A stretch of DNA of 64,000 bases from contig JAJJLU010003495.1 of assembly GCA_023807065.1 (NCBI GenBank), positions 1 to 64,000 of the forward strand, written 5' to 3'. Below are positions 6,607 to 54,913 of this stretch, one piece after another. How positions within the stretch are numbered: position 1 is the first letter of the stretch; each line of letters begins with the position of its first letter. The stretch is from Isotricha intestinalis. Taxonomy: Eukaryota > Ciliophora > Litostomatea > Vestibuliferida > Isotrichidae. Below the pieces are notes generated by a model. That model made no database searches, was not told the DNA's origin, and saw nothing but the letters and a program-made list of their open reading frames with translations. The position numbers were made by a program, and so were the translations under genes.

Positions 6607-9600
6607 TTACATATTTGATTGTTTTTTATCTAAACTTTTATTATTTAATTGACTATTTTTAAAATTATAAATTTCAGATTTAATATTTTTCACTTCTTTA
6701 TTTATATCAATAACCTTATAAAATAATAATGAAAATCCAATAATAAGAAGTATTATTATTATTGCAATATCATATTTAAAAATTAAAAATAAAAATGAAA
6801 CAATTATAAAACTTCCTACTATTAATATAGTATCAAAATCAAAAGTATTTATATAAGCTTTTAATTTATTAATATATTCATCAACATTAATTATATCATT
6901 TTTATTAATTTTATTATTATTTATATTTTGAATGATATTATTTTCTTTAGAAATACTTTTTCTTCTATTAATTATACGTATTATTAAAGGCTTATCAGGA
7001 TTAAATAAATATTTGCAAATATCTTTCTTATTTTTATTTACTTTCTCCAAAATATCTTTTACTAAAGGTAAAAAAATATCTTTAATAAATTCATTATTAC
7101 CAGAAATTCCATCAGATTTAATTTTAGTCTTAAACCAAGTATCTTTAATAAATTTAATATTTAAATGTATTTTTAATTTAGTATGAAACATATAATGATT
7201 ATTATTTTCATTAATTTTAGAAGTATATATAAATCTTAAAGTAGAAACATAAGTATCAATTAACATAAATCCACTTAAATAAGAAGATATTTCAACAATA
7301 AAACAAAAAGGAGAAATTATAAATATATTTATTTCATCTTCAACTTCTAATTTAGAAGGTCCTCCAAATCTTTTTTTTAAAATAGGATGAATATATTTTA
7401 TTTTATATGTTATTTTTTTATTTACATTTTCACTTTTATTTTCATTTAAAAAATAATTTAAATCTTCCATTGAATTTGTTAAATAATATTTTGGTATATT
7501 TTCATAATTTCCTCTTTGAATTAATTCTAAATAATAATCTTGTTTTATTTCTGCTAATTTAACTAAATAAGTTTTATTTTCAAAGAAAGGAATATTTATA
7601 TTATGATTATATATTAAATTAAATATTATTGGAAGAGATATATCTCCACAATCTAAATTATATTCAAAATCTTCTATATTTTCTTTTTGGTTGTTTTTGA
7701 AAAATTCATTTAAATTATTCTTATTTATTTGTTTTATTTCTTTAATAAAATTTGGTAATTCTTTATTACTATCATCTTCTAATAATTTCTTTTGTAAATA
7801 TAATTGACTTTTTATATGATTAATTTTATTATTTATGATATCAAAATTTTTTTTATTTTCAAAAATCGGACTTTTAATTGTTTTTAATGAAATATTACTT
7901 TGATTATTTCTTAACTCAGGAATTTCATTAAAAAAAGTTTTAATTAATAGATCATAACAAGAATCAGAAAATAATAAAGAACCAAAAATAAAATTTTCTT
8001 TATGAGTTTTTAACTCAATAGAATTGTTTTTTTTATCAACAAATAAAACATCATTATTAGGAATAATAATTAAAGTTTTATAATTATTAGTTTTATTTAA
8101 TAAGGAATAAAAAACAACTTTTTTATTAGTTAAATATAAAGTTCCTTGTAATAAAGTTTTTTCTTTTAAAGTACAAGAAAAATTATCTAAAACTTTTTCG
8201 TCTGATTCAATAATAAAAATATCTTGATATAATTTTCCTTTTTCTTTTAACAGTAAAATATTTTTATAATTAATTTCTTTATTATTTGAAATTAATAAAT
8301 CAATGTCTTCTTTTAATTTTATTAATTCTGATTGAGGAATAATATTTGAAATATTTAAATAATTATTTATTATTGTTTCTTCGGTATTAAATAAATAAAT
8401 ATTTTCTAAATCATTTATTTTTTTTTCTTCTGAGTTTAAAAAATTATTTGAAAACTCAATTGAATATTTTTTTGAAAATAATTTTAATATTTCTATTATA
8501 TAATTTTTTATTATTCCTTTATCTTGAAATAAAGAATATTTAATATTATAATTTTCTTCAAAAAATTCATAATTTTTTTTTTCATATAATAAAAATTCAT
8601 TAAATTTATTTTTTATATTTTCAATTTGATTTTTTTCTAAATTTAATGTTTTATTCATTAATTGCTTAATAACATTTTCATTATATTCTAAAATTAAAGG
8701 TTTGGATTTATTAAAACTTTCATATAATTTTTCTTGATATTTATCAATTTCACTTTTAATTGAAAGAAATTTTTTTTCAAATTCTGAAAATTTAGAAGGA
8801 TCTTTTTCTAAGTCTTCTTTTATTTTATTAAATTCATTATCTAATTTTTCTTTATCTAATATTATTTTAGAATATGATGATTTAAAATTAGAATATTCTT
8901 TATTAAATTTATTTAATTTAATAGAAAGTTTATCTTCATAATTTGATAAATTTTCATTGTAATTTGAAAGAGGAGAAATTAAATTGTTATTTATTTTTTT
9001 TATTTTTTCTTGATTTTTTTTTATATGTAATTCAAATAAATTCTTCATGAAATTAATTAATTGAAATAAAAAAGAATTTGAAATAGAAGATTGAATATTA
9101 AATAAATTAGAATTATTTTTTAATTCTTTATTAATATTTGAAGTATAATTTTCATAATTTTGAATATAAGTTTTAAAAGAATTTAAAGTAATTGATATTA
9201 TTTTTTTTTCATGAGAAACTTTATTTAATTGTTTTTGTGTTATTTCATTAAATTCTTTAGGAATTTCACTTGTAGTAAAATTATTTTTTGTCCAATCTTT
9301 TTCAATATTAATTTCTTGGATATTTTCTTTTTGAGAAAATAAATTTAAAGATTCTATTAATTTAACTATAATATCATTTAATATTTCATTTATTTTATTA
9401 TGATAATTATTCATTGAATTATTAATTCTTTCATATAATATTTTTATATTTCCTATATATATATTTATTATATATATTAAAAATTCTTTCATTTCATTAT
9501 TAAAGTTTATTTCTAAGTTTTTACAATCAGAATACACTTTCATTCTTTCTTTTTTATTATCTTCATATAATTTATCATTTTCATATAATAAATTAACTAT

Positions 9601-10137
9601 TTTTTCTTTTAAACTATAATTATATATTTCTTTTTCATTTTTTTCAAAATTTATTTTTTCTTGATATGCAGTTTCTAATCTTTTTAATAATTTATTTTCT
9701 TGATTTTCGAAATTTTTATATTGAATTCTTTGATTAGATAAAACAATAGATTTTTCATTTAATAAGTTAATTTTCTTAATTATATTATCACAAGGTTCTA
9801 ATTGTTTAATTAAATCATCAAAAAAAAAATTTTTAAAGCTTTCATTATTTTTACTAATTATTAAAATAAAATTTTGAAAAAAAACTAAAATTAAATCTGA
9901 AATTACTGATTGAATATCATTTCTAAAAGAAATTAAATCTAAATTTGATTTATTTAAAGTATTTAATATTTCATCATAAAATGATTCATTTATTTTTAAT
10001 ATTGATTTACATAATTTATTTATTGAATCAAAAAAAGTTTGAATTTCATTTAAATAAATTATTAAATCTTTTATTTCTTCATTTTCTTTATTAAAATCTT
10101 TTGGAAAATTTGGTATTATTATTTCATAAGAAGTCAT
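6607..10137 (-). CDS. BAR-like/GRAM/VASt membrane-anchored lipid-transfer-type protein
   Basis: A 1176-residue protein. Residues about 1-540 are long amphipathic helices resembling a BAR/SNX-type helical bundle. Residues about 636-735 match a GRAM domain (a TLYLTNKKVVFYS-type core with flanking strands). Residues about 820-1030 look like a VASt (START-like) domain. Near the C-terminus, about 1102-1150, are two hydrophobic membrane segments and a short charged tail. BAR + GRAM + VASt + TM is the order seen in yeast Lam1/Lam3-type sterol transporters at ER-plasma-membrane contacts, so a contact-site sterol or lipid transfer role is a reasonable inference. Its ATG lies only 39 bp below the stop of the duplicated kinase fragment. 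The first 208 codons are repeated at 13943-14565. Confidence 0.72.
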   Translation of the reverse strand: MTSYEIIIPNFPKDFNKENEEIKDLIIYLNEIQTFFDSINKLCKSILKINESFYDEILNTLNKSNLDLISFRNDIQSVISDLILVFFQNFILIISKNNESFKNFFFDDLIKQLEPCDNIIKKINLLNEKSIVLSNQRIQYKNFENQENKLLKRLETAYQEKINFEKNEKEIYNYSLKEKIVNLLYENDKLYEDNKKERMKVYSDCKNLEINFNNEMKEFLIYIINIYIGNIKILYERINNSMNNYHNKINEILNDIIVKLIESLNLFSQKENIQEINIEKDWTKNNFTTSEIPKEFNEITQKQLNKVSHEKKIISITLNSFKTYIQNYENYTSNINKELKNNSNLFNIQSSISNSFLFQLINFMKNLFELHIKKNQEKIKKINNNLISPLSNYNENLSNYEDKLSIKLNKFNKEYSNFKSSYSKIILDKEKLDNEFNKIKEDLEKDPSKFSEFEKKFLSIKSEIDKYQEKLYESFNKSKPLILEYNENVIKQLMNKTLNLEKNQIENIKNKFNEFLLYEKKNYEFFEENYNIKYSLFQDKGIIKNYIIEILKLFSKKYSIEFSNNFLNSEEKKINDLENIYLFNTEETIINNYLNISNIIPQSELIKLKEDIDLLISNNKEINYKNILLLKEKGKLYQDIFIIESDEKVLDNFSCTLKEKTLLQGTLYLTNKKVVFYSLLNKTNNYKTLIIIPNNDVLFVDKKNNSIELKTHKENFIFGSLLFSDSCYDLLIKTFFNEIPELRNNQSNISLKTIKSPIFENKKNFDIINNKINHIKSQLYLQKKLLEDDSNKELPNFIKEIKQINKNNLNEFFKNNQKENIEDFEYNLDCGDISLPIIFNLIYNHNINIPFFENKTYLVKLAEIKQDYYLELIQRGNYENIPKYYLTNSMEDLNYFLNENKSENVNKKITYKIKYIHPILKKRFGGPSKLEVEDEINIFIISPFCFIVEISSYLSGFMLIDTYVSTLRFIYTSKINENNNHYMFHTKLKIHLNIKFIKDTWFKTKIKSDGISGNNEFIKDIFLPLVKDILEKVNKNKKDICKYLFNPDKPLIIRIINRRKSISKENNIIQNINNNKINKNDIINVDEYINKLKAYINTFDFDTILIVGSFIIVSFLFLIFKYDIAIIIILLIIGFSLLFYKVIDINKEVKNIKSEIYNFKNSQLNNKSLDKKQSNM

Positions 10138-43176: not shown

Positions 43177-45471
43177 ATGGAATCAAAGCCAGTTCTAAAC
43201 GGAACAATAATTGAGGGTTACAAAATAATAAAATTTTTAGGAAAAGGAAAATTTAGTGATGTATACCAAGCAGAGCGTAAAGAGGATAATAAATTAGTAG
43301 CATTAAAAATAATAAAAATATATGATATAATGGATAAAGAAACAGTACAAAAATGTCTTCAAGAAGTAGATTTACTTAAAAAAGTATCTCATCCTAACAT
43401 TGTTAAATATTTTGATTCCTTTATTTCAAATAACGAATTATTTATAGCAATAGAATGGGCAGATAAAGGTGATGTTAAGAAACTGATAAAAAAATTTAAA
43501 CAAGAAGGAGACGAAATAGATGAAGTACATATAATAGAATATACAAGAGAAATAGCAAGTGCACTTCAACATATGCATGAACAAAGAGTAATTCATAGAG
43601 ATTTAAAACCTGCAAATATATTAATATTTAGTGATGGTACTTTTAAATTAGGTGATTTAGGTTTGGGAAGATCATTAAGTAAAGAAACTATAAAAGCGTT
43701 TTCTCGTGTTGGAACTCCTTTATATATGGCACCTGAAGTTATTAATAATAAAGGTTATGATTTTAAAAGTGATAATTGGAGTTTAGGCTGTGTTGTTTAT
43801 GAATTAGTTACTTTGAGATCTCCTTTTCAAACTAATGAAAAAATTTCTGTTATGGATCTTTTTAAAGTTATCACTTTAGGACAATATAAAGATATTGATC
43901 ATCCTAAATATAAAACTGCTAAAATTATTGTTAATGGACTTATTAAAATTAATCCTAATGAAAGATTAGATTTAAAGGAAGTTATTAAGATTTGTAATGA
44001 TTATTTAAGTAAAGTTGAAGAAAAACCAAGATTTGATCCTTTTATTATTATGGATGATATTAATGAAAAATTAAGACTTCTTAATTATGAAGATAATTTT
44101 TGTAAAAAATTTAATAAAGATATTATCAATAAATATTATTTTGCTATTAATATTTATGGTTATGATTATAACAATGAAAATAATTCACTTAATGAAAGTT
44201 ATCCTGTTCAATTTTCTTATTTTTATGATTTGAGTAATTGGTTAATGGCTTTAATAAAACAGAATGTGAATTTAAATATTATTAAAGAATTCGAGATAAA
44301 AATAAAGAAATATGATAAGAAAAAATCACATGAACAACAAATGAATGAATTAATAGAAGATTTAAAATCAATAGATGTGAAAGTATTATTAAATTCTAAA
44401 TTTAAATACGGATACGGTGATGGAGTATGTTTAGTTTTAACTCAATTATGTGATAAATATTTAATAAAACAAAATTATATATTTAAAAAGCCAAAATTTA
44501 AAGAAGGAAAACAAAAAATAGAAGAAATAAAAGGATATGATGATATAGTTCTTGAAGAAAACATAGGAACAAATTTTGGTTTTAAACCAAAAACAGGAAT
44601 TAATTTTGGAGGTGGATTTAAAAATAATATAACTTCAACAAAAACTAAATTTTTCCAAGGAATAGGTATTAAGAGATTTAATTCTTATTCTAATAATGAT
44701 GATGTTAATACTGCTGCTACTGAAATTTCTGTTAATGATGATGAAAATTATAATAATGTTAATAATATTAAAAATAATATATTAATAAGTGGAATTGAAC
44801 AAAATGAATGGAATAAAGAATTTAAAAGAGTTGAAAATATTTTAGAAATTCCTGAAGCTCCTGAAATTTTTGAACAAAGTGAAAGTTATAATAATAATAA
44901 TAATATTAGTAATAATAATAATTTGAATGATAATGAAAAAAGTATTATTAGAAAATTATATAATTTTAATATAAATTTTGATAATGATTATTCTTATTTT
45001 ATTGAAGGAATTAATAATTATAATGAAGAAATTGAGAAAGAATTAAAAAAAATTAATATAATTGAAAGTTCTTTAGGAAATAATGAAGAAAATAAAAGTA
45101 ATTTATCTAAATTGAAATTAACTCAAAATGCTGTTAAACATTATAAAGAAGATATTGATAATATTAATGATGAAATTGAAAGTATGAAAAAGGAAAAAGA
45201 AAAAATTATACATAAAATTAATAAATTAAATGCTTTAGAAAAGAATGAATTAAGTATTGATGATAAAAATAAATTAAATTCTATTAAACAAAATTTAAAT
45301 ATATTAAAAAATGAAACTTTGAAATATAATTCTGAAGAAAGTATTTTAAATGCTGCTTTAATAAATATAAATAAAGATGAAAATTTAAATTTAATAAATA
45401 ATAATAAAATTTTATTTTCAAATGATAATAATGATAATGAACAAATTTTTTCAAATGATGAAATAATTTAA
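43177..45471 (+). CDS. NEK6/7-like kinase fused to IFT57
   Basis: A single uninterrupted 764-residue ORF. Residues about 15-280 are a NEK6/7-type kinase: GKGKFSDV (22-29), Lys44, HRDLKPAN (Asp142, Asn147), DLG rather than DFG at 160-162 (as in NEK6/7), SRVGTPLYMAPEV. From about 288 the sequence follows IFT57/HIPPI: FIIMDDINEKLRLLNYEDNF (NN-CH-like start), YYFAI, QFSYFYDLSNWL, then SKFKYGYGDGVCLVLTQL (about 407-424), the IFT57 hallmark. About 535-550 has the EWNKEFKRVE motif and 600-750 the C-terminal coiled coil. IFT57 is an IFT-B subunit that carries cargo along the cilium. The fusion would place kinase activity directly on the IFT train (inference). All catalytic residues are present. Confidence 0.9.
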   Translation: MESKPVLNGTIIEGYKIIKFLGKGKFSDVYQAERKEDNKLVALKIIKIYDIMDKETVQKCLQEVDLLKKVSHPNIVKYFDSFISNNELFIAIEWADKGDVKKLIKKFKQEGDEIDEVHIIEYTREIASALQHMHEQRVIHRDLKPANILIFSDGTFKLGDLGLGRSLSKETIKAFSRVGTPLYMAPEVINNKGYDFKSDNWSLGCVVYELVTLRSPFQTNEKISVMDLFKVITLGQYKDIDHPKYKTAKIIVNGLIKINPNERLDLKEVIKICNDYLSKVEEKPRFDPFIIMDDINEKLRLLNYEDNFCKKFNKDIINKYYFAINIYGYDYNNENNSLNESYPVQFSYFYDLSNWLMALIKQNVNLNIIKEFEIKIKKYDKKKSHEQQMNELIEDLKSIDVKVLLNSKFKYGYGDGVCLVLTQLCDKYLIKQNYIFKKPKFKEGKQKIEEIKGYDDIVLEENIGTNFGFKPKTGINFGGGFKNNITSTKTKFFQGIGIKRFNSYSNNDDVNTAATEISVNDDENYNNVNNIKNNILISGIEQNEWNKEFKRVENILEIPEAPEIFEQSESYNNNNNISNNNNLNDNEKSIIRKLYNFNINFDNDYSYFIEGINNYNEEIEKELKKINIIESSLGNNEENKSNLSKLKLTQNAVKHYKEDIDNINDEIESMKKEKEKIIHKINKLNALEKNELSIDDKNKLNSIKQNLNILKNETLKYNSEESILNAALININKDENLNLINNNKILFSNDNNDNEQIFSNDEII

Positions 45472-52630: not shown

Positions 52631-54913
52631 ATGGCAAAAGAAATAAAAGAATGGGACTTAGATCATGATTGGGAAACAGATGATTTAAATTATTCAGGAG
52701 TAGAAGACTACCAAATATTATCATCTAAAGTATTAGATTTTAATCTATTAAATCAAAAAAAGACAGAATTAGAGAGAATATATAGTACTCAAGATTTAAA
52801 AAGTGAAAGTATGTCTCTTCCAAATCTTCAACAATATGGAACATCATTAGATTCTGTTGATGAGCCAAAATATAAACAATATTTAAAAGAATCTTTTGAT
52901 AAAATTTATCCTCTTTTTTTTTTAAGCAGAGAACAAAGGAAATTCCTTTTAGAAAAAATAACAATAAGGAAAATAACACAGAAAATGAAATTATATTCTG
53001 AATATGAAGATGCAAATTTTTGTGCTTTTATTTTATTAGAAGGTGAAATTCATGTATTTAAAAATGATTATACATTCATTGATTATTTAAATAATGTTTC
53101 TTTATTTGGATATGATGGACCAATATTTCAAAAGAGAATGACAACAACAATTGCACAATATGGAACAATAATTGCAGTCATTAAAAGAAAAGATTTTTTA
53201 AATGTTATACATCCTTTCAGTCAATTTGCTTCTTTTTTAAGTAGAAATATTAGAAATAAAGATAAAATCTTAGATTCTTTAAATTCTTTTAAAAATTTCG
53301 TTCTTTCTCATATTGAAAGAGGACCTATTGATTTTAATAAATTAATTGATTTATATAAAAAAATTAATCCTTGTATTCATCAAAAATGTAATAGTGAAGA
53401 AATTGATTTTTCAGCTTGGACTTATAGTTTAAGTAGATTACCTGTTGATGTTATTGAAACTTATATTTTTGTTCTTGTTAATAGACAACCTAGAATTTTA
53501 AATTTAAATGATAAATTAAGTAATATTGGAGTTGAAAAAGTAAAATGTATTGCAAGAAATAGAGATATTTATAAATATTTAGATGGAAAAAATGTGATTG
53601 TCTTAAGAGATATGGAAAGTGATGTTTTAGATTTTATTTCTAATATTTGTATTTATTATATTGAAAGTAAAAAATTAAGAAGTAGAATTTATTCCCCTAT
53701 TACTCTTAATGAATTAGAAAAAACTAAAGGAAATTTTGAAGAAACTGTTAAAGTTTTAACTACGAAAACTGGAGTAAGTATTTATGATGATGATAAAGCT
53801 ATTTTAAAAGGTGTTTTTGGAAATTCTTTTGCTGATAAATTAATTAATTTATGTTTAAATTATCAAGATATTAGTGTAAGAATAAATAAATCTCGTGTTT
53901 TAGATAAAGATTCAGTAGAATTTTGGACTCAAAATTTATGGAATACAGTAAAAAATCTATTTGATGATAATATAGAAATGGATGAAATAGATGATTTATA
54001 TGTAGATATATTTCAAGGAAGTAAGAGAACTTTATTATTTTGTATTTGTCCTCATATGTATGCAAATAAGGAAGAAATATTAAAATGGGGAGATGATAAT
54101 AAAATCGAAACAATAACAAAGACCTTTTTAACTGAAACTGATAAATTAATAGCATATTCATATTATTATTATTTAGCTCATCCTGAGAAAGAAAAAGAAA
54201 AGGAAAAAATGAATAAAGAACATGGAATAATATATATAGAAAAAACATATGGAACAGGAGTAGGATTAGTATTAATAAATGTAAATAAATTAAATCCTAA
54301 ATATGTAGATCCAGAATTAAAAATAAAACCAAAAACAAAACATCATATAATATTACATATAGGATATACATTTGGTTATCAAAGTCATGAAATAATAAAA
54401 CAAATTCTAATGCTTTTTGGAAATAAAGCAAAATCATTAAATTTAATAGGTAAATGTGGTGGATTAATTGGTAATAGAAGTGATATTATTATTGCAGATA
54501 GAATTATATCAGATAAATCATATGAATTGGTTTCAATAAACACAGGTAAAATTAATATTGAAGACATTAAAAAAGTTACTCAAAGAAATGTTCATGTTGG
54601 AACTTTATTAACTGTTGCTGGTACTATTTTACAAAATTATGATCTTTTAAATTTTTATAAACATGTTGTTGGATGTGTTGGTTTAGAAATGGAAGGTTAT
54701 TATTATGCTAAAGTAGTTGAAGATGAAATTAAACATAAAATGATAAATAAAGATTTTATCATGAGATGCTTTTATTATGTTAGTGATCTTCCTTTAGATC
54801 CTACACAAACTTTAAGTAAAGAAGGTGTTGCTGTTAATTGGAATGAAGGTGTTGGAGCTATGAATGCAATTCAAAGAATTATTTTAAAACAAATTTTTTC
54901 ACAGGATGAGTGA
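52631..54913 (+). CDS. cNMP-binding-like domain fused to nucleoside-phosphorylase-like domain
   Basis: A 760-residue protein, TGA stop. Residues about 85-210 fold like a cyclic-nucleotide-binding domain: ILLEGEIHVFKNDYTFIDYL, and a cassette GPIFQKRMTTTIAQYG that keeps the Arg and Thr but lacks the usual FGE acid. A helical middle region (about 220-540) has no known match. Residues about 565-755 resemble the PNP/UDP phosphorylase/MTAN fold: LNLIGKCGGLIGNRSDIIIADRI, RNVHVGTLLTVAGTI and the GLEMEGYYYAKVVED motif, where Glu-Met-Glu is the ribose-binding signature. A regulated nucleosidase or phosphorylase is a plausible reading; substrate and ligand are unknown. Unlike its neighbours it has little low-complexity sequence. 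Confidence 0.7.
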   Translation: MAKEIKEWDLDHDWETDDLNYSGVEDYQILSSKVLDFNLLNQKKTELERIYSTQDLKSESMSLPNLQQYGTSLDSVDEPKYKQYLKESFDKIYPLFFLSREQRKFLLEKITIRKITQKMKLYSEYEDANFCAFILLEGEIHVFKNDYTFIDYLNNVSLFGYDGPIFQKRMTTTIAQYGTIIAVIKRKDFLNVIHPFSQFASFLSRNIRNKDKILDSLNSFKNFVLSHIERGPIDFNKLIDLYKKINPCIHQKCNSEEIDFSAWTYSLSRLPVDVIETYIFVLVNRQPRILNLNDKLSNIGVEKVKCIARNRDIYKYLDGKNVIVLRDMESDVLDFISNICIYYIESKKLRSRIYSPITLNELEKTKGNFEETVKVLTTKTGVSIYDDDKAILKGVFGNSFADKLINLCLNYQDISVRINKSRVLDKDSVEFWTQNLWNTVKNLFDDNIEMDEIDDLYVDIFQGSKRTLLFCICPHMYANKEEILKWGDDNKIETITKTFLTETDKLIAYSYYYYLAHPEKEKEKEKMNKEHGIIYIEKTYGTGVGLVLINVNKLNPKYVDPELKIKPKTKHHIILHIGYTFGYQSHEIIKQILMLFGNKAKSLNLIGKCGGLIGNRSDIIIADRIISDKSYELVSINTGKINIEDIKKVTQRNVHVGTLLTVAGTILQNYDLLNFYKHVVGCVGLEMEGYYYAKVVEDEIKHKMINKDFIMRCFYYVSDLPLDPTQTLSKEGVAVNWNEGVGAMNAIQRIILKQIFSQDE

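Follow-up and report, generated by a model that had tools for sequence, protein, structure and literature searches.

How do cells read the length of a cilium and adjust IFT to it? The locus described here may bear on this question through its architecture: why should a ciliary kinase and an IFT subunit share one reading frame, and what might their joint product do? The window (the whole stretch of DNA analysed, 64,000 nucleotides) carries a complete NEK6/7-type kinase followed by a divergent, full-length IFT57-like region (Table 1). A first-pass annotation, made from the letters alone, had described both parts. Its complete NEK6/7-type kinase with a DLG is confirmed by Pfam and by NEK7 as the best match, and its full-length IFT57-like region by a PF10498 match with an alignable CH domain and coil; the alignment of both halves to NEK6/7 and IFT57 that it had proposed gave a match for each.

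Table 1. Parts of the fusion gene in the window, with residue numbers of the predicted protein
Feature	Positions	Strand	Basis
Single ORF, 764 aa: NEK6/7-like kinase fused to IFT57-like region	43177-45471	+	One uninterrupted frame
Protein kinase domain, residues 15-271, NEK6/7 type with DLG	43219-43989	+	Pfam; NEK7 best in PDB; AF2
Catalytic Lys44 in VALKIIK	43306-43308	+	VALKIIK in 117/121 fusion-set proteins
Tyr78, equivalent of inhibitory NEK7 Tyr97	43408-43410	+	NEK7 alignment, chain numbering
Catalytic Asp142 of HRDLKPAN	43600-43602	+	HRDLKPAN in 117/121 fusion-set proteins
Asp160 of DLG	43654-43656	+	LGDLGLGR in 118/121 fusion-set proteins
Ser176, equivalent of NEK7 Ser195	43702-43704	+	NEK7 alignment; FSRVGTP or FSKVGTP in 120/121
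Junction, residues 272-291, KPRFDPFIIMDDI type	43990-44049	+	Pattern in 27/120 listed kinase-search proteins
CH-like globular domain, residues 288-431	44038-44469	+	AF2; structure matches
PF10498 IFT57 match, residues 292-717	44050-45327	+	Pfam; hhalign to stand-alone IFT57
Loop 440-540, predicted disordered, with fusion-conserved motif EENIGTN.GFK	44494-44796	+	pLDDT under 50
Long helices/coiled coil, residues 586-740	44932-45396	+	AF2-based

The kinase half and its surroundings

We compared the kinase domain with the NEK family. The bit scores (NEK7 239.7, NEK1 157.1, NEK2 146.8) place NEK6/7 closest among the NEKs, and the AF2 block means of this domain are mostly 84-98, with the lowest dips at 67. 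The DLG, the Tyr97-type residue and the serine equivalent to NEK7 Ser195, which we take to sit in the activation loop, are all kept in the fusion, as in NEK6/NEK7 of animals and other groups. With its catalytic residues retained, the kinase is apparently active. We placed Tyr97 on the first Tyr of KYYASF because a fish NEK6 has KYLDSF and because the chain numbering agrees; a Tyr stands at this place in all 118 of the 121 proteins in which the motif could be located. A loss of the inhibitory Tyr97 switch, considered as a candidate, is excluded by the retention of this residue. The inhibitory role of Tyr97 and the numbering of Ser195 follow an account of NEK7 available in excerpt (PMC12564199). 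According to the same excerpt, human NEK6 and NEK7 consist mainly of the catalytic domain and are without coiled coils (PMC12564199), whereas the fusion adds an IFT57-like tail of some 480 residues after the kinase. Because this tail follows the catalytic domain, the fusion kinase is a NEK6/7 type of different architecture, not an ordinary NEK6/7.

In Pfam searches of 23 of the 29 window ORFs of at least 150 aa, no other ciliary or IFT gene appeared by name, and the Rfam (gathering level) and tRNA searches of the window found nothing. A neighbouring gene encodes a kinase with EF hands (Pfam). Elsewhere in the window, 52631-54913 (+) encodes a protein with DUF6909 (PF21850; 253 bits over nearly the full profile), a family without assigned function.

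Related fusions, damaged copies and other genes of the assembly

We then searched for relatives with residues 285-764 as the query, admitting proteins of about 420-1337 aa and leaving out those under about 420 aa. This search scored the 7999 candidates sharing most words, and it shows the recurrence, not the frequency, of the fusion. Pkinase and PF10498 occur together in 119 of the 120 relatives among the matches listed, of 290 found; the only one without both domains, P0046, is a fragment beginning inside the kinase. The relatives carrying the fusion are drawn from ncbi, ena, jgi and lgn sources and, with the window, make up 121 rows in nine clusters at 85% identity. Among the rows printed, identity to the window is 73-95% for the kinase, leaving out the truncated P0046, and ranges from 48-92% for the IFT57 half. 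No relatives were found in the viral contigs and prokaryote genome contigs searched. For 99 of the 110 relatives P0012-P0121, the longest contig measures 2.4-2.8 kb, barely more than the gene. Contigs of this size recall the gene-sized chromosomes of litostome ciliates; the available part of a study of Balantidium reports 22,334 nanochromosomes (PMC10978948). Our guess for the source is a rumen-type ciliate, rich in A+T and using the standard code.

The assembly (57.3 Mb in 2153 contigs, not shown to be a single organism) contains two further copies. One (L009 3575-5843, on contig C903) is close in sequence and frame-broken, differing from the window by several one- and two-base gaps and a TAG. 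The other (L010, about 9040-9914, on contig C2010) lies degenerate at a contig end, has 20 stops in its kinase part and shares a lesion with the C903 copy; the sequence upstream of it resembles, by eye, a gene elsewhere on C903, so that it is either a rearranged duplicate or an assembly chimera. Such damage gives some ground for suspecting the fusion itself to be an assembly or gene-model artefact, in which two adjacent genes are read as one. However, the window frame is continuous, with no stop codon between the kinase and IFT57 halves, this join recurs in many assemblies from the four sources named above, and an MMETSP transcript (P0353; IFT57 46 bits) crosses the junction. The many assemblies and this transcript refute an artefact in practice, and we regard it as extremely improbable. 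A comparison of the window with the C903 copy (739 aligned codons in total) gives a dN/dS of 0.054 in the kinase half and of 0.159 in the IFT57 half, so that selection has acted on each half in one or both of these lines. The dS values are uneven, at 0.70 for the kinase and 0.26 for the IFT57 part, as would follow from a more recent exchange of the 3' part between the copies.

PF10498 has five matches in the assembly: the window, two on C903, the end of C2010, and C520. The last is a stand-alone IFT57 gene scoring 248 bits against 118 for the window, which excludes the window as the sole IFT57 of the assembly. The first-pass annotation had concluded that the fusion would fix a kinase to every IFT-B train, and this is not supported in view of the C520 gene, its score and the wide occurrence of stand-alone IFT57s. 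As a combined observation against the fusion it had named a second, stand-alone IFT57 and related species that lack the fusion: the stand-alone gene exists, and the relatives keep the fusion. The C520 gene has one apparent 90-base GT..AG intron. A code with TAA=Q was considered for this gene and excluded, as the internal stops lie in this intron; a neighbouring 780-aa frame, without in-frame TAA or TAG, also speaks against it. A search for stand-alone relatives of C520 gave 138 matches, and the 120 listed all have PF10498 and none a kinase, in a search over proteins of about 223-710 aa, a limit that shut out most fusions. One protein labelled as from an archaeon MAG (P0144) is 59% identical to the stand-alone IFT57, and probably represents protist DNA misassigned to an archaeal bin.

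The kinase search of the assembly scored 134 matches out of 1461 candidate places, and the three best are copies of the fusion. Seven kinases with 37-42% identity follow, in which DFG (four) or DLN (three) stands at the place of DLG. The count of separate genes suggested by the earlier annotation thus yields a stand-alone IFT57 on C520, and no separate NEK6/7 with DLG among the first ten kinase places of this incomplete assembly. As the assembly may mix organisms, both results are only loosely tied to the genome of the window. Ribosomal protein L3 was not found in a search of the 57 Mb either, so the assembly is incomplete or partly withheld, or the gene is split by introns; because of this incompleteness, the absence of a gene is weak evidence. 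As a separate observation, an alpha- and a beta-tubulin gene are arranged head to head with 120 bases between them (L028 634-3489), and tubulin pairs of nearly equal score are found on three contigs, namely this one, C1462 and C1974.

Distribution across eukaryotes and origin of the fusion

We next investigated how widely the fusion occurs. A kinase-only search (291-aa query) covered proteins of about 160-509 aa and listed 120 of 4531 matches; full-length fusions fall outside these limits, so fused and unfused rows are unevenly sampled. PF10498 is present in 26 of the 120 listed proteins. In addition, a profile with stand-alone IFT57 and Chlamydomonas as its only training set was tested on the 58 kinase tails of at least 40 residues, and it matches 23 of them at E 0.01 or better (the best of 1160 shuffles reached 0.012). 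Whole-protein hhalign comparisons were driven by the kinase and are uninformative on tails. A Phytophthora ramorum protein named Nek6 (P0287), encoded on a 3.4 Mb contig, is fused, with the C-terminal part of IFT57 at 259-427 (46 bits); the CH part is absent from its gene model, and the CH profile does not detect it. P0269 and P0257, which we call stramenopile-like and dinoflagellate-like from their placement in the kinase tree, match IFT57 with 63 and 36.5 bits, the latter below the cut-off of 40. An invention restricted to ciliates is excluded by the oomycete and stramenopile-like fused proteins.

A kinase tree was made from 71 domains, with rows hand-picked from the relatives, the kinase search and the assembly kinases. 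The fusion groups with named NEK6/7 proteins, apart from four other assembly kinases (98/92). Within this group, 37 fusion and 19 unfused rows form one clade (99/93), which includes the named stramenopiles and the dinoflagellate; the NEK6/7 of named animals, of the fungi Sorochytrium and Blastocladiella and of Chlamydomonas, all free of IFT57, stand outside it. The window kinase falls in the part of the clade holding the dinoflagellate, P0257 pairs with Prorocentrum (100/99), and P0287 pairs with a Phytophthora capsici model (99/81). In the tree of the IFT57 half (38 rows, after two planned rows lacking the motif were dropped), the fusions are split, and a single fusion clade is not rejected (p 0.198).

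The most likely origin, as the best though unproven fit to these sequences, is one old fusion in the stramenopile+alveolate line. Alternatively, kinase and IFT57 genes may have joined repeatedly, with alveolates and oomycetes, for instance, acquiring the fusion separately. This agrees with the five changes of the fusion label on the kinase tree, a number that the starred branches alone force, and with several stramenopile-side NEK6/7 rows that show no IFT57; some of these, such as P0288 and P0294, have long tails and no Pfam IFT57 match. For P0288, a likeness of the tail to a CH domain was seen by eye, and the profile gave it no support. However, some rows counted as unfused end early, within the kinase domain or shortly beyond it (P0280, P0348), and P0283 is marked partial; such rows account for part, not all, of the unfused ones. 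The tail of an Aureococcus kinase (P0359) resembles the IFT57 CH domain by eye, albeit with a profile E of only 0.021, and hidden fusions may be commoner than the domain tables show. Furthermore, the fusions seen share the kinase-first order, and a like junction pattern recurs in 27 of the 120 listed proteins, P0269 and P0257 included. Repeated joining appears unlikely to us. A bolder reading, which we consider rather less likely than not, places a single fusion before the stramenopile/alveolate split; it would have built a NEK6/7 kinase into the structure of an IFT57-type subunit, and with it into some IFT machinery.

The IFT57 half and its possible role

We then investigated the fused IFT57 half. 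PF10498 scores 117 bits on it, against a curated cut-off of 40, with nearly the whole profile covered. Like IFT57, an IFT-B2 subunit (Chlamydomonas 8ruy chain M), the fusion thus has PF10498, a CH domain and a coiled coil; unlike IFT57, it has a divergent sequence, an N-terminal kinase and its own conserved loop. In an hhalign comparison with stand-alone IFT57, the CH domain and the coil align over the full length, and the segment between them is unlike canonical IFT57. The CH-like domain of the fusion (AF2 block means 61-95) finds IFT57 (8ruy_M) and the IFT81 CH domain as its first structure matches. The best structural match is IFT57 itself, and the fold is like that of the solved protein. 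In a single-sequence search, the fused half matches Chlamydomonas IFT57 with 19 bits; a stand-alone relative matches it with 131. As this relative is closer to Chlamydomonas IFT57, and the C520 copy scores higher on PF10498, the sequences indicate that the fused half is a diverged IFT57 paralogue, provided that the assembly is one organism. On the same proviso, the fusion is not the best IFT57 copy of the assembly and does not qualify as the orthologue.

We infer binding and function from these comparisons: the protein is likely a NEK6/7 kinase whose IFT57 tail docks it, either on IFT-B or at the base of the cilium. More specifically, and with about even confidence, we suggest an apparently active NEK6/7-family kinase whose IFT57-paralogue tail would be a permanent docking module in a subset of IFT-B2 complexes. 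The tail would dock through its CH domain and coiled coil, and would replace canonical IFT57, or pair beside it, in some IFT-B2 complexes with IFT38/CLUAP1 and IFT20 (IFT38 genes are present in the assembly on C1044, C144 and C913, and IFT20 genes on C465 and C1058). Whether on trains or at the ciliary base, docking would keep the kinase close to IFT-B2 and dynein-2, and there it would phosphorylate putative substrates among the IFT or motor proteins. In the part of a human study available, IFT57, an IFT-B2 subunit, touches several dynein-2 subunits (PMC10110421), and because of these contacts a kinase at the IFT57 site could tune motor hand-over, train entry or train disassembly. Given the additional stand-alone IFT57, the kinase would be needed only on some trains, in some places or at some stages.

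Because the fused IFT57 is divergent and its CH-to-coil region non-canonical, partner binding by the tail may have been lost. The tail might even have left IFT altogether, its diverged CH domain and coiled coil serving dimerisation or targeting to basal bodies, cortical microtubules or nuclei. This would suit the far greater divergence of the fused copy than of the stand-alone one, the loop conserved among the fusions, and the finding that the CH domains of many proteins also match the globular part in the structure search; in addition, the authors of one paper state that an earlier study of theirs found Paramecium IFT57 to act both in cilia and in the macronucleus (PMC6006156). On the other hand, the CH domain and the coil can both still be aligned to IFT57, the IFT57 half is under purifying selection, and the closest structure remains that of IFT57. 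We consider a role outside IFT possible, if somewhat doubtful.

The proposed docking on IFT-B resembles LF4/MOK and other cilium-length kinases, in so far as a kinase would act on IFT trains. However, LF4/MOK are separate proteins of the RCK kinase group, whereas the fusion is a NEK covalently joined to an IFT subunit. The excerpted text of a Tetrahymena study reports that LF4A, a separate kinase, reduces the frequency and speed of trains, and that a few LF4A particles travel by IFT. In one length model, the kinase is a separate protein stationed along the axoneme, close to the trains that pass; the authors note that feedback on length would require a train component to be reused (PMC6682161). 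We speculate that a kinase within a train subunit would supply such a reused component.

The first-pass annotation knew of no described NEK-IFT57 fusion, and we likewise found no description of a kinase-IFT57 fusion among the open-access papers listed. In the available portion of a P. infestans kinome paper, IFT57 is not among the accessory domains of the kinases, and the main text of an oomycete domain-fusion paper has no word beginning with IFT or NIMA. The architecture is visible in precomputed Pfam annotations, and is thus undescribed as far as we found, rather than unseen.

A natural, long-conserved covalent link between a NEK and an IFT-B subunit is strong evidence that both functions belong together. 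It raises the question of whether the simple animal NEK6/7 has an IFT partner, and it offers a ready-made probe, in which the kinase can be inactivated with the train part untouched. If a single ancient fusion is true, members of a large part of eukaryote diversity would have a kinase built into some of their IFT machinery, possibly as an internal sensor of train dose or cilium length, and animals, fungi and green algae keep the kinase and IFT57 apart.
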